From a virus: a stretch of 52,324 nucleotides of DNA. Below are positions 3,702-34,579 of this stretch, in pieces. Numbering within the stretch: the first letter of the stretch is position 1; each line of letters begins with the position of its first letter. A program made the position numbers and the translations under genes. The stretch spans positions 1-52,324 of the IMG/VR virus record IMGVR_UViG_3300006802_000129; one strand, given 5' to 3'. The notes under the pieces are model-generated. The model did no database searches. It was not told the DNA's origin and saw only the letters and a program-made list of their open reading frames with translations.

Positions 3702-4856
3702 TTAGACGTTGGTACTATACGGAGCAGGAGGATTGTACCAGTTGGTTGCTGAAGTCGTTCCGGTAGTTACCTCAGGGGTAAAGGCCGAAGCAGCAGTCTC
3801 AATGGAAACCATCCAATCTTCGTTTAAGATAATAGAACCAAACATAAACGTATACCCCACCGTACCACGCTGGCCTAGAGGGTCAGTACCGCTAGGAGTA
3901 GGTCGTACTACCTTTGGTACAATGCTATCCATCCCGCCAATCGTTGCTGTCCCTACAGAGTCTCTAGCAAAGATTACAATCGGGTAAACATCTGTTTTAC
4001 CATTATTAGTCAATACAGGGGTGTTTGCATGTGGAGTAGCACCAGCACCCTGAGAAGTGTCACCGTTTCGGTCAAACGGAACTGCTTGGGTAGTGGCAAT
4101 AAAACGAATTCCGTTGTAGGAACCCATCTCAAAGTCCATCACATCTCCGCTAGCATACTTCTCAACTGGTACAAACCCTTCAATGTTCTCCAGGTCGTAG
4201 CGCAGATTCGGATGACAGATTGCAATGAATCCAGCACGGATCGGCTCAGTCGCTACATCAGGACTAGCAGCTAACATTTCGGTCATCTTCACGGCGTCAT
4301 TGTTCTCTAGGAATCGAATAGCCTGATCGAACTCTTTACCCGTAGTAGATAAGATTCCGTTAACATTATCTCGTCTAGTTACTGCAACAGCAGGGCTAGA
4401 GTTAGATCCATCATTGGTGTAGATCACGTTAGCAGGGGAACGGAAATGCTTATAAGCTAGCATGTCCATTGTCTCGGCTGCTTGGATCGCTTGTCTGTCA
4501 CTAATGATACTGATGTAAGGATCTTGTCCTAAAAGTTCCATCAAGTCTGTCACAGGCGTGTAACGTCCGTACTGACGGATAGAATGTGAAATCACTTCAG
4601 ATTCTAGCGTGTCGAAATCAGGAGTTACACCCTCGCCTAGTGGGGTAGTATTGATCGGGAACTTCTTATATCTACGATGTCGAATCGTGTTGCCCTCTCC
4701 TGTACCCTTTGAATCCTTCTGAGCGAAGCGAGCAAAGGTTAAATGTTTTTGGGCAATCGGTAACATCTTTGACTGAATCGTCAAAGCATCCTCGGTGCTC
4801 AGATCTCCGTAAAGAGATCCAGCTACCGTTGTATAATTAGTAGCTGTAATAGCCAT
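3702..4856 (-). CDS. Major capsid protein, N4-gp56 family
   Basis: 384 aa. It has the hallmarks of the N4 gp56-type major capsid family: an N-terminal region with KHLTFARFAQKDSKGTGEGN, then TIRHRRYKKFP, the segment RQYGRYTPVTDLMEL, and a C-terminal part where GFIAICHPNLRYDLENI and YNGIRFIATTQAVPF occur in order. The HK97 fold is expected for this family. It lies directly after the scaffold gene (8-nt gap), which is the usual order. A ribosome binding site (AGGAGA) precedes the ATG. Confidence 0.88.
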   Translation of the reverse strand: MAITATNYTTVAGSLYGDLSTEDALTIQSKMLPIAQKHLTFARFAQKDSKGTGEGNTIRHRRYKKFPINTTPLGEGVTPDFDTLESEVISHSIRQYGRYTPVTDLMELLGQDPYISIISDRQAIQAAETMDMLAYKHFRSPANVIYTNDGSNSSPAVAVTRRDNVNGILSTTGKEFDQAIRFLENNDAVKMTEMLAASPDVATEPIRAGFIAICHPNLRYDLENIEGFVPVEKYASGDVMDFEMGSYNGIRFIATTQAVPFDRNGDTSQGAGATPHANTPVLTNNGKTDVYPIVIFARDSVGTATIGGMDSIVPKVVRPTPSGTDPLGQRGTVGYTFMFGSIILNEDWMVSIETAASAFTPEVTTGTTSATNWYNPPAPYSTNV

Positions 4857-19859: not shown

Positions 19860-20125
19860 CGACGAACCCCTTTGTAAACAGGGTAGAGCGGGATACGAAC
19901 CCTGCGTTCTATGCTGTATTGAATAGTGGTGGCGTACTATGCCGTAGTTGTGTGATCGGTGAACAGCATCTAATATTAGAAGCTACTGAAAACTATTTAC
20001 AATCAGGGTGGGATCAGAGTGGGTATTTTGTTCTGAATATAGAAGAGAATACCGAGGACTATAGCCTACGTTGCAGTCATTGCAGTGATCTTATCCCCCG
20101 AAATAAGGGGTGGCAGAAAGGGTGA
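19856..20125 (+). CDS. Small zinc-ribbon-like protein
   Basis: 89 aa, starting MTTNPFVNRVERDTNPAFYA. Two Cys pairs, CRSC at about residue 29-32 and CSHC near 73-76, could bind one zinc ion. It begins in the stop of the dcd gene. Its stop codon TGA lies inside the first GGTGACA iteron (20121-20132). Function unknown; a small DNA- or protein-binding factor is likely. Confidence 0.6.
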   Translation: MTTNPFVNRVERDTNPAFYAVLNSGGVLCRSCVIGEQHLILEATENYLQSGWDQSGYFVLNIEENTEDYSLRCSHCSDLIPRNKGWQKG

Positions 20126-20408
20126 CACTTCTCCGATGGGTGACACTTCTTTTCCAAGCTCAGTCTAACGTTCAGTGTCTTGGCTTTTGTTGTCGTCTGT
20201 TTTTGTAACGTTGTTGTCACGAGATGTGTCACCTTTTCGAGATCTGTCATCGAAGTGTCACCCCTTCCAGCCCAGTGTTTCTCTGGCCTTGAGGGAAAAA
20301 GGTGACAGATGACAGATCTTTCCAGAAACTCTTCATGCAACTTGAAAGAATATATTCTGTTTCAAAGGTTATATAGAAACCTTTCCCGCAGAAGTGTCAC
20401 CTGTCACC
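20121..20408. repeat. GGTGACA iteron array, candidate origin or operator cluster
   Basis: GGTGACACTTCT occurs exactly at 20121-20132 and 20139-20150 (plus) and at 20390-20401 (minus), with an 11/12 copy at 20251-20262 (minus). Shorter TGTCACC/GGTGACA sites lie at 20227-20233, 20301-20307 and 20402-20408, with TGTCAC at 20215-20220. A 12-bp inverted repeat (AGATCTGTCATC) pairs 20240-20251 with 20308-20319, and a 7-bp one (AAAGGTT/AACCTTT) pairs 20364-20370 with 20378-20384. No convincing gene lies in 20126-20537. Iterons plus palindromes beside an AT-rich promoter fit a replication origin or a multi-site operator. Confidence 0.75.
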
Positions 20409-20444
20409 GACCCCCCATTTCTGCAATGAAGTGTATTTGTACTG

Positions 20445-20474
20445 TTGACTTATTCCGTCAAGAGAATGTATTAT
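20445..20474 (+). promoter_or_regulatory. Sigma70-type promoter after iteron array
   Basis: TTGACT (20445-20450), 18-bp spacer, TATTAT (20469-20474). It reads toward the rusA-like gene at 20538. The nearest iteron ends 36 bp upstream. Confidence 0.7.
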
Positions 20475-20537
20475 ATGTGTACTTTATCTTTCCTCGTGTA
20501 ATCGTCTACAACTCCTAGTTTTATTCTCACTACTGCG

Positions 20538-20912
20538 ATGCTTAGCTTTACGTTGGGGTTCCCCCCATCTTTGAATAGTTATTATAAAAAATATAACAAT
20601 CGAATAATAATATCCAAAGCAGGGAAAGACTACCAAGAACAAGTAAAGTTACTAGCAATGGGTAGGCCAATGTCTTTTGTATCAAAAGACAGATTGCGTA
20701 TGGATATGCTGGTCTACCCTCCCGACTTACGTCATCGTGACCTAGATAATTTACTTAAATGCACCGCTGATTCTTTACAGAACGCAGGGGTATTCCCCAA
20801 TGATAGCCAATTAGATTGCCTCCATGTCGTACGTTGTAAGAAAGACAAACATAATCCTAGAGTCGAGGTGACCCTATCCTTATTCGAGATGGAGGATGTA
20901 CTTTGCAGCTAG
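20538..20912 (+). CDS. rusA: RusA-like Holliday junction resolvase
   Basis: 124 aa, normal for RusA (about 120). It cuts four-way DNA junctions made by recombination and replication, which helps resolve DNA before packaging. Visible: N-terminal GFPPSLNSYYKKYNNR, basic patch, and the catalytic acidic set with Asp-68 and Asp-70 in LRHRDLDNLLK and Asp-89 in GVFPNDSQLD. First gene after the iteron/promoter region; the ATTCTCACTA motif is just upstream. Confidence 0.88.
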   Translation: MLSFTLGFPPSLNSYYKKYNNRIIISKAGKDYQEQVKLLAMGRPMSFVSKDRLRMDMLVYPPDLRHRDLDNLLKCTADSLQNAGVFPNDSQLDCLHVVRCKKDKHNPRVEVTLSLFEMEDVLCS

Positions 20913-21313
20913 ACACCATACTGGTTCGAGTACTTACAAAGTATCGTGAGCGAGCTACCAAAGGACAGGAAAAATACGGAACAACTCTAGATAGAACAGA
21001 CCTAACAGCCCAACAGTGGCTCCTCCACCTGCAAGAAGAGCTAATGGATGCCACCCTATACTGCGAGAAATTGATGAGTCCTAGTGAAAACCTACAGAAT
21101 GCTATCAAACAAGAGATCGATTCTTCTCTAGAAGAACACCTGACTAGGGCCAACACCCTAGCTGTAGTTCACCAACGTCTTTGGCTACGAATCCTAGATA
21201 AACCAGGAGATCCTAGTAGCTATCAGTACACCCCCGACGAGATGAACCTACTTAAAGAGACTGCCTTGAGCTACCTGAGTGGAGATATGTTGGGAAAGTC
21301 AACCACGAGTTAA
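20903..21313 (+). CDS. MazG-like nucleotide pyrophosphohydrolase
   Basis: 136 aa, probably starting at TTG (20903), with GGAGG eight bases upstream inside the rusA-like gene. RATKGQEKYGTTLDR at about 17-31, then WLLHLQEELMDATLYCEKL at about 39-57, is a pattern of short phage all-alpha NTP pyrophosphohydrolases, with EExxD-type metal ligands in EELMDA. These hydrolyse (d)NTPs to monophosphates and fit beside dCTP deaminase and ThyX. The second half is helical and less typical. Family call from motif only. Confidence 0.7.
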   Translation: MQLDTILVRVLTKYRERATKGQEKYGTTLDRTDLTAQQWLLHLQEELMDATLYCEKLMSPSENLQNAIKQEIDSSLEEHLTRANTLAVVHQRLWLRILDKPGDPSSYQYTPDEMNLLKETALSYLSGDMLGKSTTS

Positions 21314-21345
21314 TAGAGTGTAGTTTCAAGAGACTATTAACTGCA

Positions 21346-21816
21346 CTGGAGTATGCAGTTGAGCCACTTTTCACGACAAAAGAAGTAGCCGATCTCGTAG
21401 GATGCTCACATCTGCTCATACGCCGATGGATTTCCAGAGGTAGTTTACCCTACGTCGAACTAGGAAAGTGGAACTACGTCCGTCTGAAGGATCTGGAAAT
21501 CCTATTGAAGACGGGCCGACCTCCGAACCAAACAGACCGTAGACGTAGCACCTACTCCCAGTTATCTGGTAATTCCCCTGCGGAATTACGAACAATGCTA
21601 TGGACACGGTACGTATATACTATGCGTAAGGAAGAGGATCGGAGGAGAACAACAGGGTCGACCGAAAACGAATACCCTACTTTTTTGGAATGGCTCCAAA
21701 CAGGTGGGAGAGAAACTCGGAGGGCATTACGCAAGCTGGAGTCCCAGCTTAATGGCGTACCCCTGTCAACTTTTTTAGAATCATTGGAGGACAAAGAGTA
21801 TACCCAGACTCTCTGA
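21346..21816 (+). CDS. HTH_17/excisionase-like DNA-binding protein, start unclear
   Basis: Residues encoded from 21361 read FTTKEVADLVGCSHLLIRRW followed by ISRGSLPYVELGKWNYVRLK, a clear excisionase/MerR-type winged helix-turn-helix, then a GRPPNQTDRRR basic linker and a helical C-terminus. The open frame runs from 21256 but has no ATG, GTG or TTG before the domain; the first is TTG at 21505, after it. CTG (21346) or ATA (21313, touching the previous stop) must serve, or the DNA-binding part is dead. It could be the recombination directionality factor for the integrase. Its stop lies in the left arm of candidate RNA B. Confidence 0.6.
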   Translation: MEYAVEPLFTTKEVADLVGCSHLLIRRWISRGSLPYVELGKWNYVRLKDLEILLKTGRPPNQTDRRRSTYSQLSGNSPAELRTMLWTRYVYTMRKEEDRRRTTGSTENEYPTFLEWLQTGGRETRRALRKLESQLNGVPLSTFLESLEDKEYTQTL

Positions 21817-21927
21817 CAGGTCGATAGCTAGAGTTTTAATTAGCGTTGTGGACTCACGGTAAATAGTAGACGGAAGCTTGAGGGAGCCTCCATTATTTTA
21901 TTTACGGCTATCGACCTGTCAGAGAGT
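21808..21927 (+). ncRNA. Candidate structured RNA B with 21-bp perfect end stem
   Basis: 21808-21828 is the exact reverse complement of 21907-21927 (21 bp, no mismatch). The 78-nt interior holds GTAAATA (21859-21865) pairing TATTTAC (21899-21905), which encloses GGAAGCT (21872-21878) / AGCCTCC (21885-21891, one mismatch), and a small GTG-GACT-CAC hairpin (21848-21857). Together these make a branched fold in the gap between the HTH gene and thyX. No T run follows. No flanking target duplication or second copy was seen, so it is not an obvious small transposon. Confidence 0.65.
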
Positions 21928-22033
21928 CGAGCAGGCAGACAGGCGTTACCTGCTTTAAAATCCTTATGCCTAGACGGTTTCAATTACTCTGTCGTCTTTA
22001 AACTTAATCGAGTGCTGAATACCTAGGAGCAAG

Positions 22034-22651
22034 ATGCTTAGCCAAAACCAAGTTCAACTACTATCTTTTAGTGGAGGTGACGAGTCACACGCCCGAGCAG
22101 CATGGGTATCTACTTCAACAGATCTTACCCAACACAGACATCGAGTACCAGAGCTATTATCTTTCCTTGCAGCAAACGATCACGGCTCACCCTTTGAGCA
22201 CAGTTCGTTTACCTTTCATATCCGTAGCGATCTAGCTACCCACATCCAGTTTCTCAAGCATCGGGCTGGAGTCAGTATCAATACGGAATCCGCTAGATAC
22301 AAGGAGTTAACAGACGATAGCTTTTACTTACCAGGCGATTGGCCTGACGAGGCGAAGCACAGGGCTGCCAGGCAAATAGAAGACTGTATGAGCGGATACC
22401 ACAAACTAGTAGACGAGCTGACTCCCGACATTGGTAGGAAGCGTGCGAAAGAAACAGCTAGGTTATTGATACCTTATGCACACCAGTTGAGTTACATAGC
22501 CACCTTTAACTTCCGTTCTTTTATGCACTTTCAGAAACTACGCAATAGTGAACAGGCCCAAGACGAGATCGCTACCATAGCAGACGAGATGCTTGAACTA
22601 CTGCGTGCTACTGGGATGTATGAAGATTCCCTTATGGCTTTTGGTTACTGA
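22034..22651 (+). CDS. thyX: FAD-dependent thymidylate synthase ThyX
   Basis: 205 aa, usual length. It makes dTMP from dUMP with FAD, NADPH and methylene-tetrahydrofolate. FEHSSFTFHI at about 54-63 and the signature KHRAGVSINTESARY at about 75-89 identify it. The consensus is RHRxxSxNxxSxR; here the first Arg is Lys and one extra residue lies between HR and S. The C-terminal NFRSFMHFQKLRNSEQAQ segment is normal. A start with AGGAGCAAG upstream is clear. Its stop overlaps the end of the convergent integrase gene by 7 bp. With Dcd and the MazG-like protein it forms a dTTP-supply set. Confidence 0.9.
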   Translation: MLSQNQVQLLSFSGGDESHARAAWVSTSTDLTQHRHRVPELLSFLAANDHGSPFEHSSFTFHIRSDLATHIQFLKHRAGVSINTESARYKELTDDSFYLPGDWPDEAKHRAARQIEDCMSGYHKLVDELTPDIGRKRAKETARLLIPYAHQLSYIATFNFRSFMHFQKLRNSEQAQDEIATIADEMLELLRATGMYEDSLMAFGY

Positions 22652-23742
22652 AGACAAGCTAAGGCTGCTCTCATATCGGATTGATCCGAGTAGGCGTAGC
22701 GTTCAGTCGTAGACGTTTTGCTATGCCTACAGATCTCAGCAATCACCGGCAGAGGAACCTTTGCCCTCATCAAGGTAGTCACTAACGAAGCACGGAATCC
22801 GTGTAGTGGCTTAACTTTACCCTTGAGTCCCAACTCTTTTACTACTGGACGGACGAGTTTAGTCATTGCCGAGACATCGCAAAAAGCTGGATGACCCGAA
22901 CCTGTGTCCAAGTAGTACGTCTCTTGAGCATCACGAGCCGCCAGATCCTGTGCTAGAAACTCCTGTAATGGTTTCGGTACAGGAAGTATTGCAGCTTTGC
23001 CCTTCTTTGGAGACCAGTTTAGTTCCGGTACATGACGGATTAGGATTTCCGATTGGCTCAGAAATATATGACGAAGCGGCAGCGTCCGCACTTCCGAAGC
23101 TCGCAATCCTAGATAGCGCAACATCATTACCATGCGTAGTCCATTACGGTTTCGCTCCGACATGGCAGCTTGGATATGCTCAAGATCCGTGAGGCTATAC
23201 ACCCCTCGTACCCGATCTTCTTCTGCTACATTTTTCAGAGTGATCTTCGGGATGAGTCCCTGACTATGCAGATAGTTTAGATAGATCCCGACCATCCGCA
23301 GATAGCTTCTCGTTGAGTTACGGCTCAGTCCGTCTGCGTCACAGCGTTTAATAAATTCACTGCTACTATTATCCGCTAGACTAGCGAGTTTTAGATCTCC
23401 GACAATCTCAATGAACTTGAGAACCGAAGATCGATACTCTTTCCTAGCTTTCTCTGTTCTAACCGTTAGCTGATTGATCCAGATTTCTACCCATTCACTC
23501 ATGCGTAGGTTAGCAACCGCCGTATTATTATTTAATGAGGCCTTTACTTTATTAGCTATTTCTTCCAGCAGACAATCGATCTCTAGCTGAGAGCGTCTGC
23601 GTCTGCCGCTACGTGTGCTTTTGAACTGGATGTCATCGTCGTCGGCTAGCTTTCTAAAGAGCAAACTATTTTCAGTATGTACTCGTAGATACCAGGCCTG
23701 ACGATCTTTTCTATAGAAAATCTCCTGTCGTTTACGTGGCAT
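22645..23742 (-). CDS. int: Tyrosine-type integrase
   Basis: 365 aa. It recombines attP with attB during lysogeny. Basic N-terminus (arm-binding), core-binding domain about 75-165, catalytic domain from about 180. Catalytic set is complete: Arg-214 in GLRASEV, Lys near 249 in KKGKAAILPV, His-314 and Arg-317 in LHGFRASL, His-340 in CRHSKTSTTERY and nucleophile Tyr-349. AGGAG precedes the ATG. It is downstream of the XRE repressor gene (7-nt gap), so the two form one minus-strand unit. Unusually, the likely attP lies about 11 kb away, at 34450-34499. Confidence 0.93.
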   Translation of the reverse strand: MPRKRQEIFYRKDRQAWYLRVHTENSLLFRKLADDDDIQFKSTRSGRRRRSQLEIDCLLEEIANKVKASLNNNTAVANLRMSEWVEIWINQLTVRTEKARKEYRSSVLKFIEIVGDLKLASLADNSSSEFIKRCDADGLSRNSTRSYLRMVGIYLNYLHSQGLIPKITLKNVAEEDRVRGVYSLTDLEHIQAAMSERNRNGLRMVMMLRYLGLRASEVRTLPLRHIFLSQSEILIRHVPELNWSPKKGKAAILPVPKPLQEFLAQDLAARDAQETYYLDTGSGHPAFCDVSAMTKLVRPVVKELGLKGKVKPLHGFRASLVTTLMRAKVPLPVIAEICRHSKTSTTERYAYSDQSDMRAALACLQ

Positions 23743-23749
23743 AGGACTC

Positions 23750-24085
23750 CTATAGACTCTGAGATTTTAAGTATTCGATATCCACTGCAATCTGATTCAG
23801 CTTTGCCATGATATCCTCGTTTGTAATGCTCCTTCGTGGAACAGTGTACGTGCTCTCTCGCTCAATCGTTTCGATCTCTCGCATCATGTGCTGAATATTC
23901 TGAGGATCTAGCGAAGACACCTTGGCTAGCATAAGAATGTAGTCTTCATCAGGAAACTGTATCCCACGCTCTAGCCGACTAATCCGCTTTGGATCGGTAC
24001 GGAATCTCTCAGCTAACTGCTCCTGAGTCAAGCGTGATTCATGTCTAGCTTCTTTTAACTTAATACCCAATTGAATCCGGTTCAT
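23750..24085 (-). CDS. XRE-family repressor
   Basis: 111 aa. An N-terminal helix-turn-helix, IKLKEARHESRLTQEQLAER, then FRTDPKRISRLERGIQFPD, is typical of Cro/CI-type proteins. The C-terminal ~45 residues are helical and may dimerise (NEDIMAKLNQIAVDIEYLKS). There is no S24 peptidase domain, so control would not be by RecA-stimulated self-cleavage. It is divergent from the replication operon, over a 49-bp gap, and co-directional with the integrase gene. This suggests the lysogeny repressor, or a Cro-like switch. GGAG precedes the ATG. Confidence 0.85.
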   Translation of the reverse strand: MNRIQLGIKLKEARHESRLTQEQLAERFRTDPKRISRLERGIQFPDEDYILMLAKVSSLDPQNIQHMMREIETIERESTYTVPRRSITNEDIMAKLNQIAVDIEYLKSQSL

Positions 24086-24134: not shown

Positions 24135-25409
24135 ATGAAGCCTTTTCCTTATCAACTACGAGTAGCCCAGCACCTTGTCGCTAACAAGCGAGTGATGCTG
24201 GATGCAGATATGGGTGTGGGGAAGACCATCATGTCCCTAACAGCCCTCAAGCTATTGCAACCGGAGAGGACACTAATCCTCTGTCCGGCAGTAGCAGTAG
24301 CAAACTGGAATGCAGAGATCAAAAAGTGGGGCTGCTTCCACCTATCGATTCGGGTTCTCTCGTATGACAAAGCTCGCACGACTAGCACTCTCTCCACTCT
24401 AGTAGAGTGGAGGCCAGAAGTACTCGTGCTGGACGAAGCACACTACTTAAAGAATCCCGAAGCCAAGCGCACCTTAGCCATCTATGGCAAGGGAGGTCTG
24501 GCGCATGTTGCAAAAAGGGTATGGCTATTGAGCGGTACGTTTGCACCCAACAACGCTGCGGAATATTATCCGCATCTGCATTGCCTCTTCAGCCATCTCC
24601 TTCCCGATAAGGTGGAGAGTTACAATGCATTCCTAAACTACTTCTGTGTAGTACGGCATGATCGTATCCAGGCCAGAGGCCGGACAATCACGATACCCAG
24701 AGTCTTAGGCAATGCAAATGTAGCGGAGATGAGGGATATCCTAGCACAAACAGGCGTGAGGATTCGTGCTAGCGAAGTTCTTCCAGAGTTGCCGAAACTA
24801 ACGTGGGCCACTCTCATGCTCGAAGGTTCTAACTTAAAAGGTTTGAGAGAACTGACTCGTGAAGCGGAGCGCTATCTGGAGTTAGTACAGCAAGGTATCC
24901 CAATCCCTCCCGACTCTCACCTTATGCAACTAAGAAGGCTACTGTCTGAGGCCAAAGCCACAGCAGTTATAGAATGGTTACACGATTACACTCAGCATAC
25001 AAGAAAAAAGCTAGTAATATTCTCACAACACATCAACCCCTTATCCAAAATCCACCAAGCTTTTAGCAGTAGTTCGTGCTTACTAAATGGAAGTACTCCT
25101 TCCAAAAAACGAGGAGAATTGGTAACTCGATTCCAGAATGATCCTGACTGCCAATTGTTTCTTGGACAACTCATAGCCTGTAACACTGCCATCACCTTAA
25201 CGGCAGCAAGTCGTATCCTCTTCCTCGACCTATCCTTTGTACCAGGAGAGAACGCACAAGCCGCCGCCCGTTGCCATCGAGTAGGGCAACACCAGCCTGT
25301 CTTAGCACAGGTCGTCACGCTACCTCATAGCCTAGATGAAAAGGTAGCTGAAGTTCTTGTACGTAAAACGCAAATGCTAAAGGAGCTAGAATATGCAGAA
25401 CCATGCTGA
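24135..25409 (+). CDS. SNF2-type DEAD/H-box helicase
   Basis: 424 aa, short for SNF2 proteins and lacking accessory domains. Visible: Walker A DADMGVGKT at about 23-31, motif Ia LILCPAVAVANW, motif II DEAH at about 99-102, motif III SGT near 132, and C-terminal lobe motifs IV (KLVIFSQHINPL) and VI (AAARCHRVGQHQPV at about 375-388). Phage SNF2-like helicases are common beside DUF2800/DUF2815 replication genes and probably remodel DNA or replication complexes. First gene of the replication operon, divergent from the repressor. No Shine-Dalgarno sequence is visible. Confidence 0.88.
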   Translation: MKPFPYQLRVAQHLVANKRVMLDADMGVGKTIMSLTALKLLQPERTLILCPAVAVANWNAEIKKWGCFHLSIRVLSYDKARTTSTLSTLVEWRPEVLVLDEAHYLKNPEAKRTLAIYGKGGLAHVAKRVWLLSGTFAPNNAAEYYPHLHCLFSHLLPDKVESYNAFLNYFCVVRHDRIQARGRTITIPRVLGNANVAEMRDILAQTGVRIRASEVLPELPKLTWATLMLEGSNLKGLRELTREAERYLELVQQGIPIPPDSHLMQLRRLLSEAKATAVIEWLHDYTQHTRKKLVIFSQHINPLSKIHQAFSSSSCLLNGSTPSKKRGELVTRFQNDPDCQLFLGQLIACNTAITLTAASRILFLDLSFVPGENAQAAARCHRVGQHQPVLAQVVTLPHSLDEKVAEVLVRKTQMLKELEYAEPC

Positions 25410-25476
25410 CGATTTAGAAGAAGAGCTGCTAGCGATCAAAGCCTTATTGGATGAGATCAATCGGCGCAAAAGGTAG
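25393..25476 (+). CDS. 27-aa microprotein
   Basis: MQNHADDLEEELLAIKALLD followed by EINRRKR. It starts inside the helicase 3' end with AAGGAG seven bases before the ATG, a better ribosome site than most genes here. The sequence is one amphipathic, acidic helix with a basic tail, likely a coiled coil. Could bind the helicase or a replication partner. Real but unproven; Leu/Glu pattern and ribosome site are the evidence. Confidence 0.5.
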   Translation: MQNHADDLEEELLAIKALLDEINRRKR

Positions 25477-25508
25477 TACTATTCTCACCACAAACGGAGT
25501 ATACTGTC

Positions 25509-26228
25509 ATGCAACTACACGCCTTATCCAAAGAGCTGGAACTGGAACCGACGAAAGCCTCACGGTTACTGACCAAGTTAGGCTACGGCAACAGTTTCCC
25601 CAATGAACTAGACGGAGACATGGAACTACATTTACGTACCGTCAATGACATGCTCAACCGAGGCTTCACGATCAACGATGCCGTAGGGGTCGTCAAGCGT
25701 CAGATCGACGGACTAGATGCAGACGATCCCGAAGAACCACCACCTCCTCCGGTTAGATTTAAGAAACGAGGCAGACCCAAGGGGTCTAAGAACAAGAGTA
25801 AAGACCCAAACGCTAATAAAACTTGGGATGAAGTCTGTTGGGAGGCTCAGTTACGTAGGTGGGAAGATAACCCAAGCTACCCAATCGGAGTAAAGATTAA
25901 CTACTTACAGAATAAGGTTGTACGAACTGAAGAACAGGAGCAATGGCTAAAGAAGTTACAGGCCGAGGCTCAAAGAGAAGAGCGTAAACGGTTATCTAGT
26001 AAACCAATACCAATATGGGAAGCTATGAACAAAGCAGTCGAAGAGACAGTAGACAAAGCACCAAAGGATGCACCGGAAGATACGAAGGAAGGACTCAAGC
26101 AATTGCTTTTAGACATTTGCCTCAATCTAGTTTCCCAACAAGATGCTAGAGCCTTTGAAGCAAACAAGGAACGCTGCCTTTCCTTGCTACGTAGAAACAA
26201 TGCAGGTCAACCACTAACAGTAAACTAA
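25509..26228 (+). CDS. AT-hook-like DNA-binding protein, unknown
   Basis: 239 aa. The N-terminus (LSKELELEPTKASRLLTKLG) resembles a small helical DNA-binding unit. A Pro-run linker (EEPPPPPVRFKK) leads to RGRPKGSKNKSKDP at about 88-101, an AT-hook core (RGRPKGSK) that binds the minor groove of AT-rich DNA. The C-terminal half is charged and helical. AT-hooks are rare in phage proteins. In the replication operon it may organise DNA or regulate the operon. Not recognised as a named family. Confidence 0.65.
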   Translation: MQLHALSKELELEPTKASRLLTKLGYGNSFPNELDGDMELHLRTVNDMLNRGFTINDAVGVVKRQIDGLDADDPEEPPPPPVRFKKRGRPKGSKNKSKDPNANKTWDEVCWEAQLRRWEDNPSYPIGVKINYLQNKVVRTEEQEQWLKKLQAEAQREERKRLSSKPIPIWEAMNKAVEETVDKAPKDAPEDTKEGLKQLLLDICLNLVSQQDARAFEANKERCLSLLRRNNAGQPLTVN

Positions 26229-26238
26229 GGAGCACTCA

Positions 26239-26496
26239 ATGATACCTGTCATTAAAGATAAAATACTCGATAAGGTTTGGGATCTCTACCGGGATCACTT
26301 ATTCTACCAACTCAATAATCCCGATACAGGTGATTTCGGAGAAGAAAATAGTTGTCCTAAGTGTGCACTGGAACATGCAGTAGGGAGAACTGCCTTCTTT
26401 TTTGAAGCGGAAGACGTAGTACTAGAGGACATCTACAACATCGTCAAAACTCTAAGGGAGCAGCCTGATGAAACTAGCACAGACGACAACGGATGA
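26239..26496 (+). CDS. Small CPxC-containing protein of unknown function
   Basis: 85 aa, starting MIPVIKDKILDKVWDLYRDH. It has ENSCPKCALEHAVGRTAFFF, a CPKC pair that could be part of a metal or redox site. Acidic C-terminus. The last 29 bases overlap the start of the DUF2800 nuclease gene. Not recognised. Confidence 0.6.
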   Translation: MIPVIKDKILDKVWDLYRDHLFYQLNNPDTGDFGEENSCPKCALEHAVGRTAFFFEAEDVVLEDIYNIVKTLREQPDETSTDDNG

Positions 26497-27799
26497 CTTT
26501 GTTAAACGATTACACCACTACAATGAGAGTGAACACTCATACTTGTCCGCTAGTAAGATGGAGATCTGGGGTAACTGCCCTGGAGCAGTGGAGCTAGCGG
26601 AACGTATCGTGTTACCCAACCAGCCCAGCAGCTACGCCATCGAAGGGACGATGGCCCACAAACTAGCAGAGCAGACTCTTCGAGGGGACATCGAGATACC
26701 GGAAGACGGACTCGAAAAGCTAACGCAAGGTGATCCGGTTGCCAACGACTTCCTGCCATCTGTGGAATACTACGTAGATTATGTGATGGAGAGAGTACGG
26801 GAGCTACGGGCCGAGTATCGTAGAAAGAAAGTCAAGGACGAACCTAAAGTAGCAGTAGAGCAGCGAGTTGGCCTTAACCCTCTGCTAGATCGTGACCCTT
26901 CTGGTCATACCTTGATCAACATGGTCAGCATGTACGGAACCGTGGACTGTGTGATCCGTGCAGACAAGGGAACATGGGGGTTGCCGCTTGATATAATCGA
27001 CTACAAACACGGGGCTGGAGTACCAGTAGAGATCTGTGATGACTCAGGCTTCGGCCCGAACCCACAACTTATGTACTATTTACTAGGAGTACTCGCTGAT
27101 GATTTTAGAATTCCTGCCGACTACGGCTTCACCGAGGCATACCTCAAGAAAAGGTATAGCCGCTACACTATTCACATTGTTCAACCACGTGTACCGGGGA
27201 AAGGAGGTAGCTATGAAGTAACAGTAGATCAAATACTACAGTTCTATCAGGAGCTAGTTGACAAGAGCGCAAGAGCGTTGAATCAACACTTAGCCCAAGA
27301 CATCGATGAACTCAGCCTTAACACAGGAGAATGGTGTCGTTGGTGTCGGGTAAAAGACTATTGTCCTAAGTTTTTAATGACGCAAATACAAGAGAGCATG
27401 GAGGACTTTATGCAGTTCGATATGATGGAGACTGGAAAGATCGGTAAGAACGTCGATGATCTTGACAATGGTCAGCTTTCTGATATACTGACAAAAGCTG
27501 AAAGAGTGGAGCGAATGATTCGCTTAGTGCGGAATCATGCAGAAGCTAAACTATATGCCGGAGATAACATCCCTGGCTTTGGACTAGTAGACAAACGAGC
27601 TACAAAGAAATGGTCAGACGAGAAGCTAGTACTTGGGATTATGAAGCGTCTCAACATCGACCCGTTCAAGTTCCTCAACCTGCCTTCTCCGAGTGCTTTA
27701 CTGAAAGTACTACCGAAGACAGTAAGTACGGAACTGAATGACTTAGTAGTCAAAGAGTCTAGTGGTAAACGCTTAGGCAAACTTCGAGAGGAAGGATGA
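26468..27799 (+). CDS. DUF2800 PD-(D/E)XK nuclease (Cas4/RecB-like)
   Basis: 443 aa. Starts YLSASKMEIWGNCPGAVELA, the opening of DUF2800 proteins. Nuclease motifs follow: His in EGTMAHKLAEQT at about 58-69, Asp in YGTVDCVI, the D-x-K pair in DIIDYKHGAG near 176-184, and NPQLMYYLLGVL with the Gln/Tyr. The Cys cluster WCRWCRVKDYC at about 289-299 with an earlier Cys recalls the iron-sulphur cluster of Cas4/AddB. DUF2800 proteins pair with DUF2815 and polymerase genes in phages, and probably act as recombination exonucleases. Start in the previous gene's end. Confidence 0.85.
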   Translation: MKLAQTTTDDFVKRLHHYNESEHSYLSASKMEIWGNCPGAVELAERIVLPNQPSSYAIEGTMAHKLAEQTLRGDIEIPEDGLEKLTQGDPVANDFLPSVEYYVDYVMERVRELRAEYRRKKVKDEPKVAVEQRVGLNPLLDRDPSGHTLINMVSMYGTVDCVIRADKGTWGLPLDIIDYKHGAGVPVEICDDSGFGPNPQLMYYLLGVLADDFRIPADYGFTEAYLKKRYSRYTIHIVQPRVPGKGGSYEVTVDQILQFYQELVDKSARALNQHLAQDIDELSLNTGEWCRWCRVKDYCPKFLMTQIQESMEDFMQFDMMETGKIGKNVDDLDNGQLSDILTKAERVERMIRLVRNHAEAKLYAGDNIPGFGLVDKRATKKWSDEKLVLGIMKRLNIDPFKFLNLPSPSALLKVLPKTVSTELNDLVVKESSGKRLGKLREEG

Positions 27800-28155
27800 C
27801 CAAGAAAGAAGTATCGATCAAACTCAACGTAACGAGTGAGACAGTCAGAAACTGGATACGTGATGGCGTGCTAGTTCCTGACGAGAAGGGAGAGTTCAAG
27901 GCCGAGGACGTTATGGCTTTGGATACCTCCAAGTACGAAGATAGTTTCCGATGGTGTACAGTCCAGCAAGCAGCACACTTACTGGGACTCACCCGTGCAA
28001 CTATCTTTACCTACTGTTCTAGCGGCACTCTGGTTAAAGAGAGTATGCGAGGACGTAGTTTCATTTCCCTTGCCAGTATCCGTGACCATCTGATGATGGA
28101 GAGCAAGCAGATCACTGGTAAACTTAATAATGTTGTCGCCTTAATGGAGCAATGA
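27796..28155 (+). CDS. Tandem helix-turn-helix protein
   Basis: 119 aa with two MerR/HTH_17-like units: MTKKEVSIKLNVTSETVRNW (about 1-20, plus wing) and WCTVQQAAHLLGLTRATIFT (about 53-72), followed by RGRSFISLASIRDHLM. Two HTH units in one short chain can bind a direct repeat or act as a replication or excision accessory factor. Coupled to both neighbours (ATGA overlap before; 1-nt gap after) within the replication operon. Function unknown; a second candidate directionality factor. Confidence 0.7.
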   Translation: MTKKEVSIKLNVTSETVRNWIRDGVLVPDEKGEFKAEDVMALDTSKYEDSFRWCTVQQAAHLLGLTRATIFTYCSSGTLVKESMRGRSFISLASIRDHLMMESKQITGKLNNVVALMEQ

Positions 28156-28156
28156 T

Positions 28157-28777
28157 ATGTCAGACTTTATCAAAACCCGTGAAAAACTAACTACTCCCCG
28201 TGGCTTTACCTACTGGGTGACCATCACTGATCCACTTCCGTACAATGAGAAGTTCAAGAAGCAGGAGGATCAGTACAACCTGCAATTTATGATTGAAGAT
28301 GGGCAGGATCTCAGCAAGCTACAGGAAGCGATTCTTCGTGTAGCCAAGGCGAGTTGGCCCAAAGGCGTGAAGGACGCTCGCCAGCATAGCGAGACGAAAG
28401 GCCAGACCTTTACCGTAGCGCAAGCGTTCAAGAAGCGCATCCTCCACAACCCCTTGTTTACTGATATCTCAGAGACAAGCTACCCCGAAGGGTCTGTGTA
28501 CTTACGAGCCAAGTCCTACCGCAAGCCGGTCTGTGTAGATCACAACCGTAACAAGATAGACAATAGCTCTATCGGTATCGGAGACGAGTGTATCCTCAGT
28601 CTCTCCATCTATAGCTGGGAATTCTCTGGAAACGTAGGGATCAGCTTTGGTCTGGAGGGTATCCAGAAAGTCGGGCAAGGTCGTGGCATTGAGTACGATC
28701 CGACCAAGGATTTTGAGAATCAGGTAGTAACCGAGGTTACTCCTGCAGAGCAAGGCGAAGAGTACATGGTTGCCTAA
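28157..28777 (+). CDS. DUF2815 single-stranded DNA-binding protein
   Basis: 206 aa. The start (MSDFIKTREKLTTPRGFTYW), followed by NEKFKKQEDQYNLQFMIEDG, and the central VYLRAKSYRKPVCVDHNRNK segment match the DUF2815 family, OB-fold proteins thought to be the SSB of phages with a family A polymerase of this type. The acidic C-terminus (TEVTPAEQGEEYMVA) resembles SSB tails that dock replication partners. Immediately follows the HTH gene and is followed by the structured gap at 28792-28915. Confidence 0.85.
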   Translation: MSDFIKTREKLTTPRGFTYWVTITDPLPYNEKFKKQEDQYNLQFMIEDGQDLSKLQEAILRVAKASWPKGVKDARQHSETKGQTFTVAQAFKKRILHNPLFTDISETSYPEGSVYLRAKSYRKPVCVDHNRNKIDNSSIGIGDECILSLSIYSWEFSGNVGISFGLEGIQKVGQGRGIEYDPTKDFENQVVTEVTPAEQGEEYMVA

Positions 28778-28791
28778 CTACTAACTAGTAC

Positions 28792-28915
28792 GACTCTCAC
28801 TACAATAGGGCTATTTGGTGTAGGCCAGCATCCATTACTCTATTGCGGGGCTGAACCACAGGCTAGCTATGCTTCACGAGTTTGTAGCGTTTGTACCCTG
28901 CATGTAGTGAGAGTC
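28792..28915 (+). ncRNA. Candidate structured RNA C, three-way junction
   Basis: A 13-bp perfect end stem (GACTCTCACTACA, 28792-28804, with 28903-28915) closes two helices that follow each other with almost no unpaired bases: AATAG/CTATT at 28804-28808 with 28840-28844, and GCGGGG (28845-28850) with CCCTGC (28896-28901, one G-U). This is a compact three-way junction in the 156-nt gap between the SSB and exonuclease genes. No T run follows, so it is not a simple terminator. Class unknown; it does not match any riboswitch or phage RNA I can recall. Confidence 0.7.
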
Positions 28916-28933
28916 TACTTTCTTTAGGAACAT

Positions 28934-29506
28934 ATGATCTCTTTCGACTTAGAGACTAGAGGTGTTGTTGACCTACGGAAATGTGGATCGTATCGCTATG
29001 CTATCGACAGTCTGACTGATGTCTGGTGTCTCTGCTATCACGACAGTGAGACCGATGAGTACCATACGTGGCTGCCTAACGATGACGTACCTCCCTGCTT
29101 TCTAAAATCAGACAATACCTACTGCGCTTGGAACGCACAGTTTGAGCGCAACATTCACCAGCACATCCTCCAACCTCGCTACGGTTTCCCTGCTATCGAG
29201 ATCGAGCAATGGCACGATACGGCTGCTTGGGCTAGGCAACTCGGACTACCAGGAGCACTAGGCAAAGCAGGTCAGGCGCTAGGTCTACCTCTCGATCAGC
29301 AGAAGGACAAGGAAGGTAGCAAGGTAATGATGCGGATGGCTAGGCCACGCAAGTGGTCTGACCGTGGCGTACCGATTTGGTGGGATGAGCAAGAGAAGCT
29401 AGATGTCCTCATAGACTACTGCCTCCAAGACGTAAAGACAGAGAAGAGTATTCGCAATCTCTTAATCGAAATCGCTAAGTACTCTGACATAACACTACTT
29501 ACCTAG
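28934..29506 (+). CDS. 3'-5' exonuclease domain of DNA polymerase as a separate gene
   Basis: 190 aa. DnaQ/DEDDy exonuclease: motif I FDLET (Asp-5, Glu-7), motif II WNAQFE (Asn-67; the usual Asp is replaced by Gln-Phe-Glu spacing), motif III YCLQDVKTE with Tyr-162 and Asp-166. In related phages this is the N-terminal proofreading domain of one family A polymerase; here a stop codon and a frame change separate it from the polymerase gene seven bases downstream. AGGA precedes the ATG. Also homologous to stand-alone exonucleases. Confidence 0.85.
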   Translation: MISFDLETRGVVDLRKCGSYRYAIDSLTDVWCLCYHDSETDEYHTWLPNDDVPPCFLKSDNTYCAWNAQFERNIHQHILQPRYGFPAIEIEQWHDTAAWARQLGLPGALGKAGQALGLPLDQQKDKEGSKVMMRMARPRKWSDRGVPIWWDEQEKLDVLIDYCLQDVKTEKSIRNLLIEIAKYSDITLLT

Positions 29507-29513
29507 GTATCCC

Positions 29514-31001
29514 ATGCAGGAAATTGAAGTGTTTCACTTCAACGAACTGCTCAACGACAGGGGTGTAGGGGTAGACCTCAAAAGTATAGACAAGCTAGTA
29601 TCCGTATGCGACGAAATCCGTAATGACTACGAGGATAAAGTCCGTGCGCTTACTGGTGGTATGGTGGATTCTGCGAAAGCAGTAAGCCAAGCTATGAAGT
29701 GGATCGCTAAGCAAGGCAAGCCTGTACCGGACTTGACTGCAAGGACGATTGACCAACTCTTGTCTCCTGAGATTGCCGCTACCTTTCCCCCTCAAGTTGT
29801 GCAGTTCTTGGAGTATCGGAAGATTGTTTCTAGGTCTTCCATTGCTAAGTTCAATGCCTTCCAAGAAACCGTCAGCCCTGACGGTAAGATCCACGGCATG
29901 ATGTTCTACCACGGAGCACATACCGGACGCTGGACTAGTAAGCTCGTGCAGCTACAGAACTTCCCTCGTGGTAAAGCCAAGCTAGACGATACAGAGGTAG
30001 AGCTAATCCTCACCAGCCTACACAACAACGACCCTAGAGAGTTTATCGAATGGTTGGAATACAAGTGTGAGCAGGAGAAGGGCTGGATCTCTCCGATTGA
30101 AGTCATCTCTACCCTGCTTCGTTCGATGATCGTTCCTGATGAAGGCAGGGTCATGTTGATCTATGACTACGCCAGCATCGAGTCTCGTGTACTAGCTTGG
30201 CTAGCAGACTGTAAGGAACTCCTCGATGCGTTCAAGAAGACCGATAGCGGTGAGGTTAGCTGGGATGTCTACATGCTGATGGCATCCAAGATCTACAAGG
30301 ACGATGTGGAATCCTATACCAAGAGCGATCCGAAGCGGCAGCACGGTAAGGCTGTTGTTCTAGGGTGTGGCTATGGGATGGGGCCAGCAAAGTTCCACGA
30401 GACTTGTGCTAGTCAAGGACTCACGCTTACCGAAGAGGAGGCTAACAACATGGTCTATAGCTTCCGTGACTCTTTTTCTGAGATTCCGCAGCTTTGGTAT
30501 CGGATAGATTCCGTGATGAAAGAGGTAGCCAAGAAGGTGGATAGCTCCCCGATAAAAGCTACCGATAACATCTCCTTCTACCGAACCAATAGCTTTGTGT
30601 TTTGCCGACTCCCTAACGGCAGAGATCTAGCTTACCCCATGATGGAAGTTAAGAATGAACTTAACCCCTATCTAGGTAAGACCGTTGAAGCGCTCTCCTA
30701 CATGGGATCGGATGTCCAACATCCTTGGTGTCGTAAAAAAATCTACGGTGCTAAGGCAGTAGAGAATATCGTTCAAGCAGTTGCTAGAGACCTGATGGTT
30801 GATGCAATGCTCAAGCTAGAGAAGGCAGGATTCGAGGTACTCTTCAGTGTCCACGATGAGATCGTCTGCCAGATCGACCAAGAGGACTATAGCTCCGAAC
30901 GTGTCGCTCAGTTTGAAGAGATTATGACTACTGTACCTGAGTGGGCTACCGGACTACCAATTCAAGTAGAAGGAACGGCAAGTGCTAGATATAGGAAGTA
31001 A
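29514..31001 (+). CDS. polA: Family A DNA polymerase
   Basis: 495 aa, polymerase domain only. It begins at a point (QEIEVFHFNELLNDRGVGVD) where homologues continue from the exonuclease. Motif A LIYDYASIESRVLAW at about 215-229, motif B with Arg-275, Lys-279 and Tyr-287 in KRQHGKAVVLGCGYGMG, and motif C FSVHDEIV at about 444-451 are intact. The catalytic Asp residues are present (DYAS, HDE). Residue Y287 in the Phe/Tyr selectivity position is Tyr. AGG before the ATG is a weak ribosome site, so translation is probably coupled to the exonuclease gene. Confidence 0.92.
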   Translation: MQEIEVFHFNELLNDRGVGVDLKSIDKLVSVCDEIRNDYEDKVRALTGGMVDSAKAVSQAMKWIAKQGKPVPDLTARTIDQLLSPEIAATFPPQVVQFLEYRKIVSRSSIAKFNAFQETVSPDGKIHGMMFYHGAHTGRWTSKLVQLQNFPRGKAKLDDTEVELILTSLHNNDPREFIEWLEYKCEQEKGWISPIEVISTLLRSMIVPDEGRVMLIYDYASIESRVLAWLADCKELLDAFKKTDSGEVSWDVYMLMASKIYKDDVESYTKSDPKRQHGKAVVLGCGYGMGPAKFHETCASQGLTLTEEEANNMVYSFRDSFSEIPQLWYRIDSVMKEVAKKVDSSPIKATDNISFYRTNSFVFCRLPNGRDLAYPMMEVKNELNPYLGKTVEALSYMGSDVQHPWCRKKIYGAKAVENIVQAVARDLMVDAMLKLEKAGFEVLFSVHDEIVCQIDQEDYSSERVAQFEEIMTTVPEWATGLPIQVEGTASARYRK

Positions 31002-31003
31002 CT

Positions 31004-33481
31004 ATGCAAGCGGAAAAACTATTTCAGAACGGGTGGGCCGAGATCATCCCAATGGCTCCCCCTACTGCAACTGCTACGTGGGATGTGAAACCTGGCAAGC
31101 TAGGAAAGATACCTAGTGCACCTAATGGAGATGGGACATGGCATCTGATCCGAGGCCTAGACTACAAAGCAACGCTTCAAGATGCGAGAGAATGGGACAG
31201 ACTTGGCGCTAACTTAGCACTTAGAACCAAGCACTATCCCGTCATCGACATAGACATCCTAGACGGTGAGCTAGCTGACCTCATACATAAGTATGTAATC
31301 AGTTTCCTTGGTGAAGCCCCATGTAGGTGGGGCAAGCGGCCCAAGTTAGGTTTAGTATATCGAACCACTAATCCTTTTGCAACGAAAGTCATTAGCTTTC
31401 GCTATAAAGATCAAATACATCACGTTGAGATCCTAGCAGATAAGAAGAACTTCAATATCGCAGGTGTACATCCCGAAGGATACACGTACGAATGGAGTAC
31501 TCCCCTTACTGTACCGGAAGAACTAACGGAAGTTACTGAAGCGGATGTAGCAGAATTAGTGGTAAGTCTGGAGGAGAAGCTAGCACAGTACGAAGGGGTC
31601 GAACTCCTTAGCACTATGCTAGAGAAAATCCCTCAAGGTGGTGATCTGTCTGCACCAAGTGAAGCGGCAATCGTCAAGGCGTTGGCTCACATACCGAATA
31701 CCTCACAGCTATTCCCTACTCGCAACCACCTAGTAGGGATGGCATGGAAGATCGCAGGGGCATTCGGTGCTAAAGAGCCAATGGATTATGAAATGCACGA
31801 AAACCCTGAGAAGTTTGAGCGTGCCAAGGATCTATTCACCGAGTTTGCTGGACGCTATGAGGATGGCTACAACTCACCGGAAGATATCGAGCACATCTGG
31901 AATTCTCTAGGTGCACCGACAACAGGCTGGGCTAGCTTAGAATTCTACGCAAAGCTCAACCCTGACTATATGTACGATGAGGTAGTGCAAGACTTTGAGG
32001 TAGTCGAGGTTGAGCCGAAGCCCCCTGTGCTATTCAAGGAATCTGAGAATGCTGCAATCTACACAACCTCTGGGTTATCTGAGCAGTTCATCCGAGACTT
32101 CCGAGGCCTAGTACGGGTACTCAATGCTACAAAAGGTATTGATAGACGCTACCTGATTCGTAAGTCTACTGAAGATAGCATGTGGGTACTCGATGAGAAG
32201 AACGAGATGCGGGATGCTATCCGTAACTACTGTGTTGCTCAGAGAGACGCAATCTTTCGGGCTATCCCTGACCCTGAGAAAGCAGCCTCTACTTTTCAGA
32301 AAGTCTGTGGTCACAAGTTCCAAGAGGATTTCCTCAAGCAGCTTACCTCCTATGCACGGATCAATGTACTACCCAAGGAGTGCAACACTGACCCTGACGT
32401 ACTGAATACTCCTGCTGGATTAATCAGCCTCAAGACAGGTAGACCTGTAGCAGCCAGAGATTCACCTACCTACCACACCAAGGCCACTAGCGTAGCGCCT
32501 GACCCACGGTGTCCCATCCCCCTGTTTCAAGAGTTCCTAGAGTTCGTCACCAACAAAGACAGGGCCATGCAGGACTACCTACAGAAGTTTATTGGCTACT
32601 CGGCAACAGGTAGAACCAATGAGCAGCTATTCCTAATGGCCTACGGTGACGGTAGTACGGGTAAGGGGATGTTTGTTCGGATCATGGAGGCTATCTTTCA
32701 TAGCTACCTGACGACCATCCCCTCCAATACTTTCTTAATGCGTAGAGGAGAACCCCACCCTACAGAACTCACCGAGTTTCAAGGCTATCGCCTAGCGGTA
32801 GTACAAGAGTTTCCAGACGATGCTGTCTGGAATGAGGCTATCCTCAAAACTCTAACAGGTAGCGATACCATCAAAGCAAGGAGGATGCACCAAGACTTCT
32901 ATCATTATGCTCCCACCCATACCGTGTTCATGGTTAGTAATCGCAAACCCTCTATCCGTACCCTCGACTTTGCAATGAAGCGGAGGATACGCCTGATTCC
33001 TTTCAAAGTTAAAGCACCACCTGAGCTAATAGCTAAAGACATTGAGAAGCAAATAAAGACGCAGGAGTTACCAGGAATCCTAGCATGGGTTATTGATGGG
33101 GCTATGCGTTGGTACAAAGAAGGGCTAGGTACTCCACCCAAGGCAGTACTAGATGAGACGGAAGCGTACTTTGAGGCTGCTGATGACTTAGCTATATGGC
33201 TCAACGACAATACGATTGCCGATCCAGAAGGCTTTGCTCCAATCTCAGCGATGCACAAGCGATGGGTAGGCTATCAAAAAGAAGCTGGTGTTGCTGCTAC
33301 CGATAGCGTCCGAATCTTTGGAGATAAACTAGAGTCTAGAGGTTTCCCTAGGAAACATACTAAGAAAGCTAGAGGACACGTAGGCCTACGTTTACGTGAT
33401 CCAACCTCTGAAGATTCGGTGTTATGCCCCCACTGCTTAGGGATTGGTCACATACCTATAGACAAAGGAGATAAGATATGA
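31004..33481 (+). CDS. Primase (prim-pol) fused to SF3/D5-type helicase
   Basis: 825 aa. N-terminal half is an AEP-type primase (prim-pol): YPVIDIDILDG at about 79-88 with the metal-binding Asp pair and a PCRWGKRPKLGLVYRT region. A linker leads to a D5-N-like region and the C-terminal superfamily 3 helicase: Walker A GDGSTGKGMFVR at about 547-558, LTGSDTIKARRMHQDFYHYA, and HTVFMVSNRKP (sensor). A winged helix at the end has Cys/His pairs (LCPHCLGIGH) that may bind zinc. It both primes and unwinds DNA in one chain. A 2-nt gap follows the polymerase gene. Confidence 0.9.
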   Translation: MQAEKLFQNGWAEIIPMAPPTATATWDVKPGKLGKIPSAPNGDGTWHLIRGLDYKATLQDAREWDRLGANLALRTKHYPVIDIDILDGELADLIHKYVISFLGEAPCRWGKRPKLGLVYRTTNPFATKVISFRYKDQIHHVEILADKKNFNIAGVHPEGYTYEWSTPLTVPEELTEVTEADVAELVVSLEEKLAQYEGVELLSTMLEKIPQGGDLSAPSEAAIVKALAHIPNTSQLFPTRNHLVGMAWKIAGAFGAKEPMDYEMHENPEKFERAKDLFTEFAGRYEDGYNSPEDIEHIWNSLGAPTTGWASLEFYAKLNPDYMYDEVVQDFEVVEVEPKPPVLFKESENAAIYTTSGLSEQFIRDFRGLVRVLNATKGIDRRYLIRKSTEDSMWVLDEKNEMRDAIRNYCVAQRDAIFRAIPDPEKAASTFQKVCGHKFQEDFLKQLTSYARINVLPKECNTDPDVLNTPAGLISLKTGRPVAARDSPTYHTKATSVAPDPRCPIPLFQEFLEFVTNKDRAMQDYLQKFIGYSATGRTNEQLFLMAYGDGSTGKGMFVRIMEAIFHSYLTTIPSNTFLMRRGEPHPTELTEFQGYRLAVVQEFPDDAVWNEAILKTLTGSDTIKARRMHQDFYHYAPTHTVFMVSNRKPSIRTLDFAMKRRIRLIPFKVKAPPELIAKDIEKQIKTQELPGILAWVIDGAMRWYKEGLGTPPKAVLDETEAYFEAADDLAIWLNDNTIADPEGFAPISAMHKRWVGYQKEAGVAATDSVRIFGDKLESRGFPRKHTKKARGHVGLRLRDPTSEDSVLCPHCLGIGHIPIDKGDKI

Positions 33482-34130: not shown

Positions 34131-34389
34131 CTGGAGATCTGGTAGATACGGTTGGAGGGCAGAAGATCTTTCTGGTCAACGGTTTGGATCTTGGCTAGTA
34201 AAAAGCCGATCAAACAATAACCGATGGGATCAGATAATGTGGAACTGCATCTGCGACTGTGGATGGGAAGCTAAAGTCGCCGGAAAGAGTTTACGAGGAG
34301 GCGGGTCTACTAACTGCGGTTGTATTGCTCGTGAGAAACTTAGTAAACGAATGAAGCAAGAGTGGGCGAACAAAAAGCGGGCTGGTTAG
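34123..34389 (+). CDS. Zinc-ribbon-like protein (homing endonuclease-associated type)
   Basis: 88 aa from 34123 (GGAG ten bases upstream; ATGs at 34105 and 34114 are alternatives). Contains DLSGQRFGSWLVKSRSNNNR, then WNCICDCGWEAKVAGKSLRG and STNCGC. This order (D-L-x-G-Q-x-F-G, C-x-C-D-C-G, S-L-R, C-G-C) is seen in small phage proteins and at the N-terminus of HNH/AP2 homing endonucleases. It probably binds zinc and DNA; no nuclease motif is present. Last plus-strand gene before the attP region. Confidence 0.75.
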   Translation: MGNWRSGRYGWRAEDLSGQRFGSWLVKSRSNNNRWDQIMWNCICDCGWEAKVAGKSLRGGGSTNCGCIAREKLSKRMKQEWANKKRAG

Positions 34390-34418
34390 GATTCGGTTGT
34401 GATTCAAAGCAAAGTATA

Positions 34419-34449: not shown

Positions 34450-34499
34450 TGGCGCGCCCACCAGGACTTGAACCTGGAACCTACTGATTAGAAGTCAGT
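34450..34499 (-). other. attP: attP core: 3' half of tRNA-Arg(UCU)
   Basis: On the minus strand this reads, in order, anticodon stem ACTGA, loop CTTCTAA (anticodon TCT), stem TCAGT, variable AGGTT, T stem CCAGG, loop TTCAAGT, stem CCTGG, acceptor strand TGGGCGC, discriminator G and CCA. All stems pair exactly. The 5' half (acceptor GCGCCCA and D arm) is missing, so it is not a working tRNA. A tRNA 3' half in a phage with a tyrosine integrase is the standard form of attP: integration restores the host tRNA gene. The 3' end matches, from memory, argU-type genes, known phage integration sites. Confidence 0.88.
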
Positions 34500-34579
34500 C
34501 TTCTAGCATCTGTTTGAGCAATGAGATCAGTGAGTTAGGATTTCTGGTTGAGTTATGGTTCTGTTATTACGAAAAGGTA

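Follow-up and report, generated by a model that had tools for sequence, protein, structure and literature searches.

Introduction

The closest described systems are the replication origins of P4 and of the SaPI and PICI satellites. In P4 alpha, a winged helix binds the protein's own repeats (PMC4234260), SaPI Rep and Cch2 bind their iterons with C-terminal domains (PMC7581432), and PICI origins carry two iteron sets, placed on either side of an AT-rich region (PMC6092414). The P4 iteron consensus is GGTGAACA (type 1, 16 annotated sites read from NC_001609), and the iterons are located in crr, just 3' of the alpha gene, and in the distant ori1.

The window analysed here is the whole of IMGVR_UViG_3300006802_000129 (positions 1 to 52,324; 52,324 nucleotides), an IMG/VR virus record and linear fragment of an uncultivated temperate phage. 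Its gene content includes an SU10-type portal and adaptor, DNA polymerase A (PolA), a single-stranded DNA-binding protein (SSB), a DUF2800 nuclease, an SNF2 helicase, RusA, ThyX, a dCTP deaminase, an XRE repressor, a tyrosine integrase and a D5_N/DUF5906 primase-helicase. A repeat array upstream of rusA had been read in a first-pass annotation as an iteron origin or a multi-site operator, and comparison with other phages now supports the origin. We consider it probable (roughly 0.77, judged from sequence comparison) that the array is the replication origin of the phage, that this origin is of the P4 / SaPI-PICI satellite kind, and that it is bound by the phage's own D5-type primase-helicase.

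Methods

All coordinates are those of the window, and strand is given for features that have one. Close relatives were searched for in IMG/VR via the zinc protein, DUF7192, MoxR and PolA. Distant relatives were gathered with a primase alignment, followed by an unbiased search for clustered 6- to 8-mers. A strict test required a 7-mer with two or more forward copies followed by two or more reverse ones within 400 bp. A weight matrix was derived from 54 sites in ten other phages, where the sites were chosen by TGAC[AG] within arrays found independently of the window phage.

Anatomy of the repeat array

The array (20121-20408, 288 bp) is located between the stop of the gene for an 89-aa cysteine-pair protein and rusA, and no convincing ORF or gene was found in it, as had been annotated. 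It contains ten TGACA half-sites, which read in a single orientation as AAGGTGACACTTCT (GGTGACA seven times, GATGACA twice and CGTGACA once). The earlier count of at least eight GGTGACA/TGTCAC sites in both orientations was confirmed, with eight GTGACA/TGTCAC sites and seven exact GGTGACA, and so were the three exact copies of a 12-mer (GGTGACACTTCT, at 20121, 20139 and, in reverse, 20390-20401) and the inverted repeats, for example AGATCTGTCATC/GATGACAGATCT at 20240-20251/20308-20319. In the 52-kb record, GGTGACA occurs 14 times against 5.1 expected, with 7 of the 14 within 20121-20408, and TGACA/TGTCA occurs 10 times in 321 bp against ~0.5 expected (Poisson p ~5e-11).

The half-sites form five direct-repeat pairs, 20121/20139 (+), 20215/20227 (-), 20245/20256 (-), 20301/20308 (+) and 20395/20402 (-), with spacings of 18, 12, 11, 7 and 7 bp in that order. 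The order of pairs on the + strand, ++ -- -- ++ --, corresponds to two '++ spacer --' modules in tandem. Module A (20121-20262) consists of the first ++ pair, a 64-bp spacer and two -- pairs, and module B (20301-20408) of the second ++ pair, a spacer of ~80 bp (20317-20394), which contains AATATATT and a 7-bp hairpin, and the last -- pair. AT enrichment of the spacers is modest, at 0.59 in module A and 0.65 in module B against 58% in the surrounding 1-kb bin. AT content over 50 bp reaches its highest value in the whole window (84%) at 20570-20619, ~160 bp from the array and inside the start of rusA, and this stretch is a candidate unwinding element. No DnaA box was found near the array, the nearest match being at 22474; P4-type origins do not need a DnaA box.

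Several other repeats were seen in the record. Denser word clusters at 0.7-1.2 kb were evaluated as a second array and rejected, as they are collagen-like coding repeats. A 13-mer copy of the array word (GGTGACACTTCTC) is isolated in the major capsid gene (4052-4064) and scores high with the array matrix; it was not counted as a member of the array, since unrestricted self-comparison gives about a dozen such matches, i.e. the level of chance. A perfect 22-bp inverted repeat with arms 78 bp apart is located before thyX (21807-21928) and includes TGACAGG half-sites. It ranks second in the cross-species iteron matrix and is possibly a second origin element or a terminator. Its left arm overlaps the end of an HTH_17 (Xis/AlpA-like) frame (21283-21816, +), in which the domain begins upstream of any ATG, GTG or TTG (first at 21505). 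This frame also overlaps the end of 20903-21313, in a different frame, and a programmed frameshift, an unusual start or decay are possible. Palindromes containing CTAGT are dispersed in intergenic DNA (~10204, 10622, 11069 and 28785), for example TAGTGAGAGTCGCACTAG and its near reverse complement, and are possibly repressor operators.

The primase-helicase

The first-pass annotation recognised no initiator in the phage, and proposed one of the small zinc or helix-turn-helix (HTH) proteins as a binder of the array. This overlooked the 825-aa D5_N/DUF5906 primase-helicase (31004-33481, +), our proposed initiator, whose family is homologous to P4 alpha (hhalign 98.3%, E 1.2e-14) and which is also homologous to SaPI5 PriRep1. 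Because primase-helicases of this family are proteins that bind their own iterons, a small zinc or HTH binder is not needed. Directly before the primase gene lies the replication operon (24135-31001, +), with genes for the SNF2 helicase, the DUF2800 nuclease, an Enc34-type SSB, an RNase H-like protein and DNA polymerase A, which is syntenic with relatives. The SNF2 gene follows 3.7 kb after the array and the primase gene 10.6 kb after it, and no array was found 3' of the primase gene in the window phage.

A model of the last 395 residues of the primase (pLDDT 83) matches D5/P4-alpha-type helicases. The C-terminal end is predicted to be a winged helix (33185-33394, +, approximately residues 728-797), and this domain is proposed to bind the iterons. 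When residues 704-804 were modelled (101 residues, pLDDT 79), the top hit was the winged-helix DNA-binding domain of RFX, with a TM of 0.74 on the target, an rmsd of 1.9 and E 5e-3. No sequence match was found between the C-terminal domain alone and the origin-binding domain of P4.

Repeat arrays at primase genes of other phages

At many viral loci with homologous primases, an array of four to five sites is present 24-102 bp past the primase stop, in the order ++ then --. These arrays consist of two direct repeats, a spacer of ~80 bp and two inverted repeats, which is the layout of module B, and their words are TGACGGAT, ATGACGG, GTGACGG, TCTGACGG, TGTGACGCA and TGACAGAT. The array of AcaML1 was missed at first, as its copies were below the search threshold, and is present too on direct reading. 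Several relatives share the whole SNF2-DUF2800-SSB-RNase H-like-PolA-primase operon at ~30% identity; in the contigs of several of these module-sharing relatives, some of which are fragments, no clear array was found.

Of 41 dereplicated primase ends, 9 passed the strict test; among control windows taken from the same loci, 19 of 2,389 did so, and none of the 820 shuffles. A TGAC core was present in 8 of the 9 passing ends. Fisher p was ~2e-10, and 6e-9 when the one non-TGAC locus was left out, values that are somewhat generous because the 41 primase loci are partly still moderately similar (e.g. L114/L128). In the record of the window phage, only the array passed the same test among 1,039 windows. 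When the record was scored with the cross-species matrix, the interval 20101-20400 ranked first with 9 of 64 hits, the runner-up having 4 (p ~5e-7 after window correction). The word TGACAGAT, which is the iteron of L142 and L090, is found as an exact half-site at 20245 (reverse) and 20308 (forward).

In one relative (G059, IMGVR_UViG_3300042299_000305), a TGACGGAT array of 273 bp is located ~10.0 kb upstream of the primase gene and 4.2 kb ahead of the SNF2 gene. Displacement of the array to the head of the replication operon is seen twice, in the window phage and in this relative.

Arrays of other types were also observed. A phage with replication genes of the same kind as the window phage (L079, IMGVR_UViG_3300020057_000100) has a large GTGTGTC-GAAAT-GACACAC palindrome array in repeated ~150 bp units at 1017-1395, and a TGTGAA array is present 1.2 kb after the primase gene in L074 (IMGVR_UViG_3300017951_000004), separate from the attP of that phage. 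A GGTGAC cluster in L163 was rejected as an array, as it is coding.

BLASTN of the array region against INPHARED (50,697 phage records) gave no match. The sole close relative in the collections was the near-identical contig IMGVR_UViG_3300025889_000530 (99.95% identical), with 9 differences from the window record, all of them outside the array. The near-identical contig adds 3 kb to the left of the record (L063, 1-3039), with small tail-fibre-like genes and without a copy of the array. Relatives of RusA showed no synteny, except for this twin contig, and no GGTGACA array. Nothing close was found with the integrase (phages and genomes) or with the terminase (52 genomes of the host class), and nothing relevant was found in the literature on GGTGACA with phage.

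Attachment site and lysogeny

An attP core was located at 34450-34499 (-), where a host tRNA-Arg(TCT) gene is matched without a difference over 50 bp of its 3' half. The match is to the tRNA-Arg(TCT) of two uncultured (delta)proteobacterial MAGs, runs through the encoded CCA and gives a hint of the host. It lacks the D arm and the 5' acceptor strand, as is typical of an attP core. Arm-like repeats (GTTAGGATT and variants, with ~11-bp spacing) were found on both sides of the core between 34384 and 34570, with arms at ~34384-34404 and 34531-34570, and are unrelated to GGTGACA. With this core and these arms, the arm sites of the integrase are accounted for away from the array. The int gene is ~11 kb from the core.

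The suggestion of a plasmid-like prophage in the first-pass annotation finds no support here, as the attP core matches a host tRNA-Arg gene; integration, rather than plasmid-like maintenance, would be the expected lysogenic state. Origins of the P4/SaPI kind serve lytic or satellite replication after excision, which also counts against a plasmid prophage. An attP was also seen in L074 (2143-2412), immediately ahead of an integrase-like ORF; its tRNA-Met-like core is flanked by GCCGACA arm sites with 11-bp spacing.

Alternative explanations

The position of the array, directly upstream of a promoter-like site and rusA in a phage that encodes several HTH proteins, is what a multi-site operator for the rusA-thyX promoter would have, with the XRE repressor (23750-24085), the HTH_17 protein (~21350-21816) or the MerR/HTH_17 protein (27796-28155) as the phage regulator that binds it. 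The nearby promoter leaves room for such a role. The annotated TTGACT-N18-TATTAT promoter does have a match before rusA (20445-20474, +), but matches of this type are at the level of chance in the record (2 found against 2.0 expected). An operator with ten sites over 288 bp would also be a large one, the divergent region between XRE and SNF2, where a repressor would be expected to act, lacks the motif, and a rusA operator does not predict the same motif type and layout beside primase genes elsewhere, so that we regard this explanation as unlikely. Cumulative GC skew, which had been proposed as a check for an origin, is lowest near 9.5 kb and highest at 34577, with a local maximum at the array (20228). 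Third-position GC skew in + strand genes is +0.146 at 10-20 kb and -0.054 at 24-34 kb, and its sign flips at the array (20000-20500), which is the wrong sign for a simple bidirectional origin. Raw and third-position skew therefore do not support an origin at the array and are counter-evidence, which is weak because phage skews are largely set by gene direction, broadly followed here. The local maximum and the sign change would instead suit a replication terminus or fork barrier. We hold a terminus to be very improbable, since the global maximum follows gene direction, a Tus-like protein was not found and the recurrent association with primase genes points to initiation rather than termination.

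Arm-type sites for the tyrosine integrase (22645-23742) were considered on account of the paired repeats of L074, as arm sites can also be short paired direct repeats (e.g. the GCCGACA pairs around the tRNA-Met core beside int). This reading was dropped when the tRNA-Arg core was found with other arm-like repeats, no tRNA-like core being present in the array, and is now largely refuted. The predicted folds of the array are very stable, far above shuffles on both strands (z -6.0 and -7.0), and would be in keeping with a structured non-coding RNA or a MITE. The stability is explained by the inversion of the iterons, and equal folding of both strands is what inverted DNA-binding sites predict; with no Rfam family, no similar DNA in 50,697 phage records and no other copy in the record, an RNA or MITE has very little to recommend it. 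Short-repeat arrays also mark centromeres, and the 13-bp copy in the capsid gene at 4052 could be taken to point to a partition or packaging site. Counted among all inverted matches of the record, that remote copy does not exceed chance, no ParA/ParB-like or terminase-small-subunit-like gene was recognised near the array, and we give such a site hardly any weight.

Proposed mechanism and meaning

SaPI Rep, Cch2 and P4 alpha (PMC7581432, PMC6092414, PMC4234260) suggest how initiation at the array might proceed. The C-terminal winged-helix domain of the primase would bind the GGTGACA/GATGACA iterons as direct-repeat pairs, and opposed pairs flanking an AT-richer spacer would load two helicase hexamers face to face. 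The hexamers would then open the spacer, or the nearby downstream AT-rich DNA (20570-20619), and primers would be extended by the phage PolA and SSB.

An uncultivated temperate phage gains a specific candidate origin and initiator from this analysis. It is also conceivable, though we hold it only tentatively, that D5/P4-alpha-type initiators of free phages and satellites keep one slowly changing TGAC-core word (GGTGACA, TGACAGAT, TGACGGAT, GGTGAACA). In that case, sequence alone would suffice to find origins, an origin would be free to part from the gene of its initiator and settle at the front of the replication operon, and a phage initiator might fire satellites or be competed for by them. 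With the shared word, phage contigs could be scanned for origins, and it could be asked whether origins are cross-recognised between phages and satellites.

Comparison with known systems

A theta iteron plasmid origin of the RepA/TrfA/pi type was rejected, as the sites of the array are in both orientations and irregularly spaced and the DnaA-box match at 22474 is the nearest one. No Rep initiator family (Rep_3-type) was found among the early and replication proteins scanned. Three features of P4/SaPI-type origins are present: the phage encodes a helicase-primase of the D5_N/P4-alpha/PriRep type, the short iterons are in two sets around a spacer that is richer in AT, if modestly so, and the iteron word is related to those of homologous initiators, as seen with the matrix, with the P4 iterons and with TGACAGAT in L142 and L090. 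A location directly 3' of the initiator gene, as in PICIs and in P4 crr, was not found. As P4 ori1 and G059 tolerate distance, this bars the array as a strict PICI rep-ori and not as a P4-like origin.

P4 and the window phage have in common a D5-family helicase with a C-terminal winged helix (predicted in the window phage), and related iterons in both orientations with an irregular spacing of 9-18 bp and in two clustered blocks, GGTGACA being the P4 word minus one A. One of the P4 clusters, ori1, is far from the initiator gene, as is the array. P4 differs in that it also has crr directly 3' of alpha, where the window phage has nothing, and the C-terminal domains of alpha and of the window primase have no significant match by sequence alone. 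The P4 primase is of the Toprim type, which is another difference. The SaPI/PICI rep-ori systems (SaPI5 PriRep1, E. coli PICIs) have a homologous primase-helicase, but their origins are immediately 3' of rep, whereas the array is upstream of its primase gene, has two modules and is found in a full-size phage.

The post-primase arrays of AcaML1 and of L069, L090, L097, L099, L114, L124, L129, L130 and L142 have the same core word and the ++...-- order. Unlike the array of the window phage, with its ten sites, AT-richer spacers and displaced position, they mostly have four sites in ~110 bp, a CG-alternating or mixed spacer and a place beside the primase gene. G059 has the same replication operon with the array at a similar place, ~10 kb upstream of the primase gene and ~4 kb upstream of SNF2, but its proteins are just ~30% identical, and a RuvC-like resolvase and a serine recombinase replace RusA and the tyrosine integrase. 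Most likely, the array joins the already known P4/SaPI kind of origin, at an unusual place, displaced from the initiator gene.
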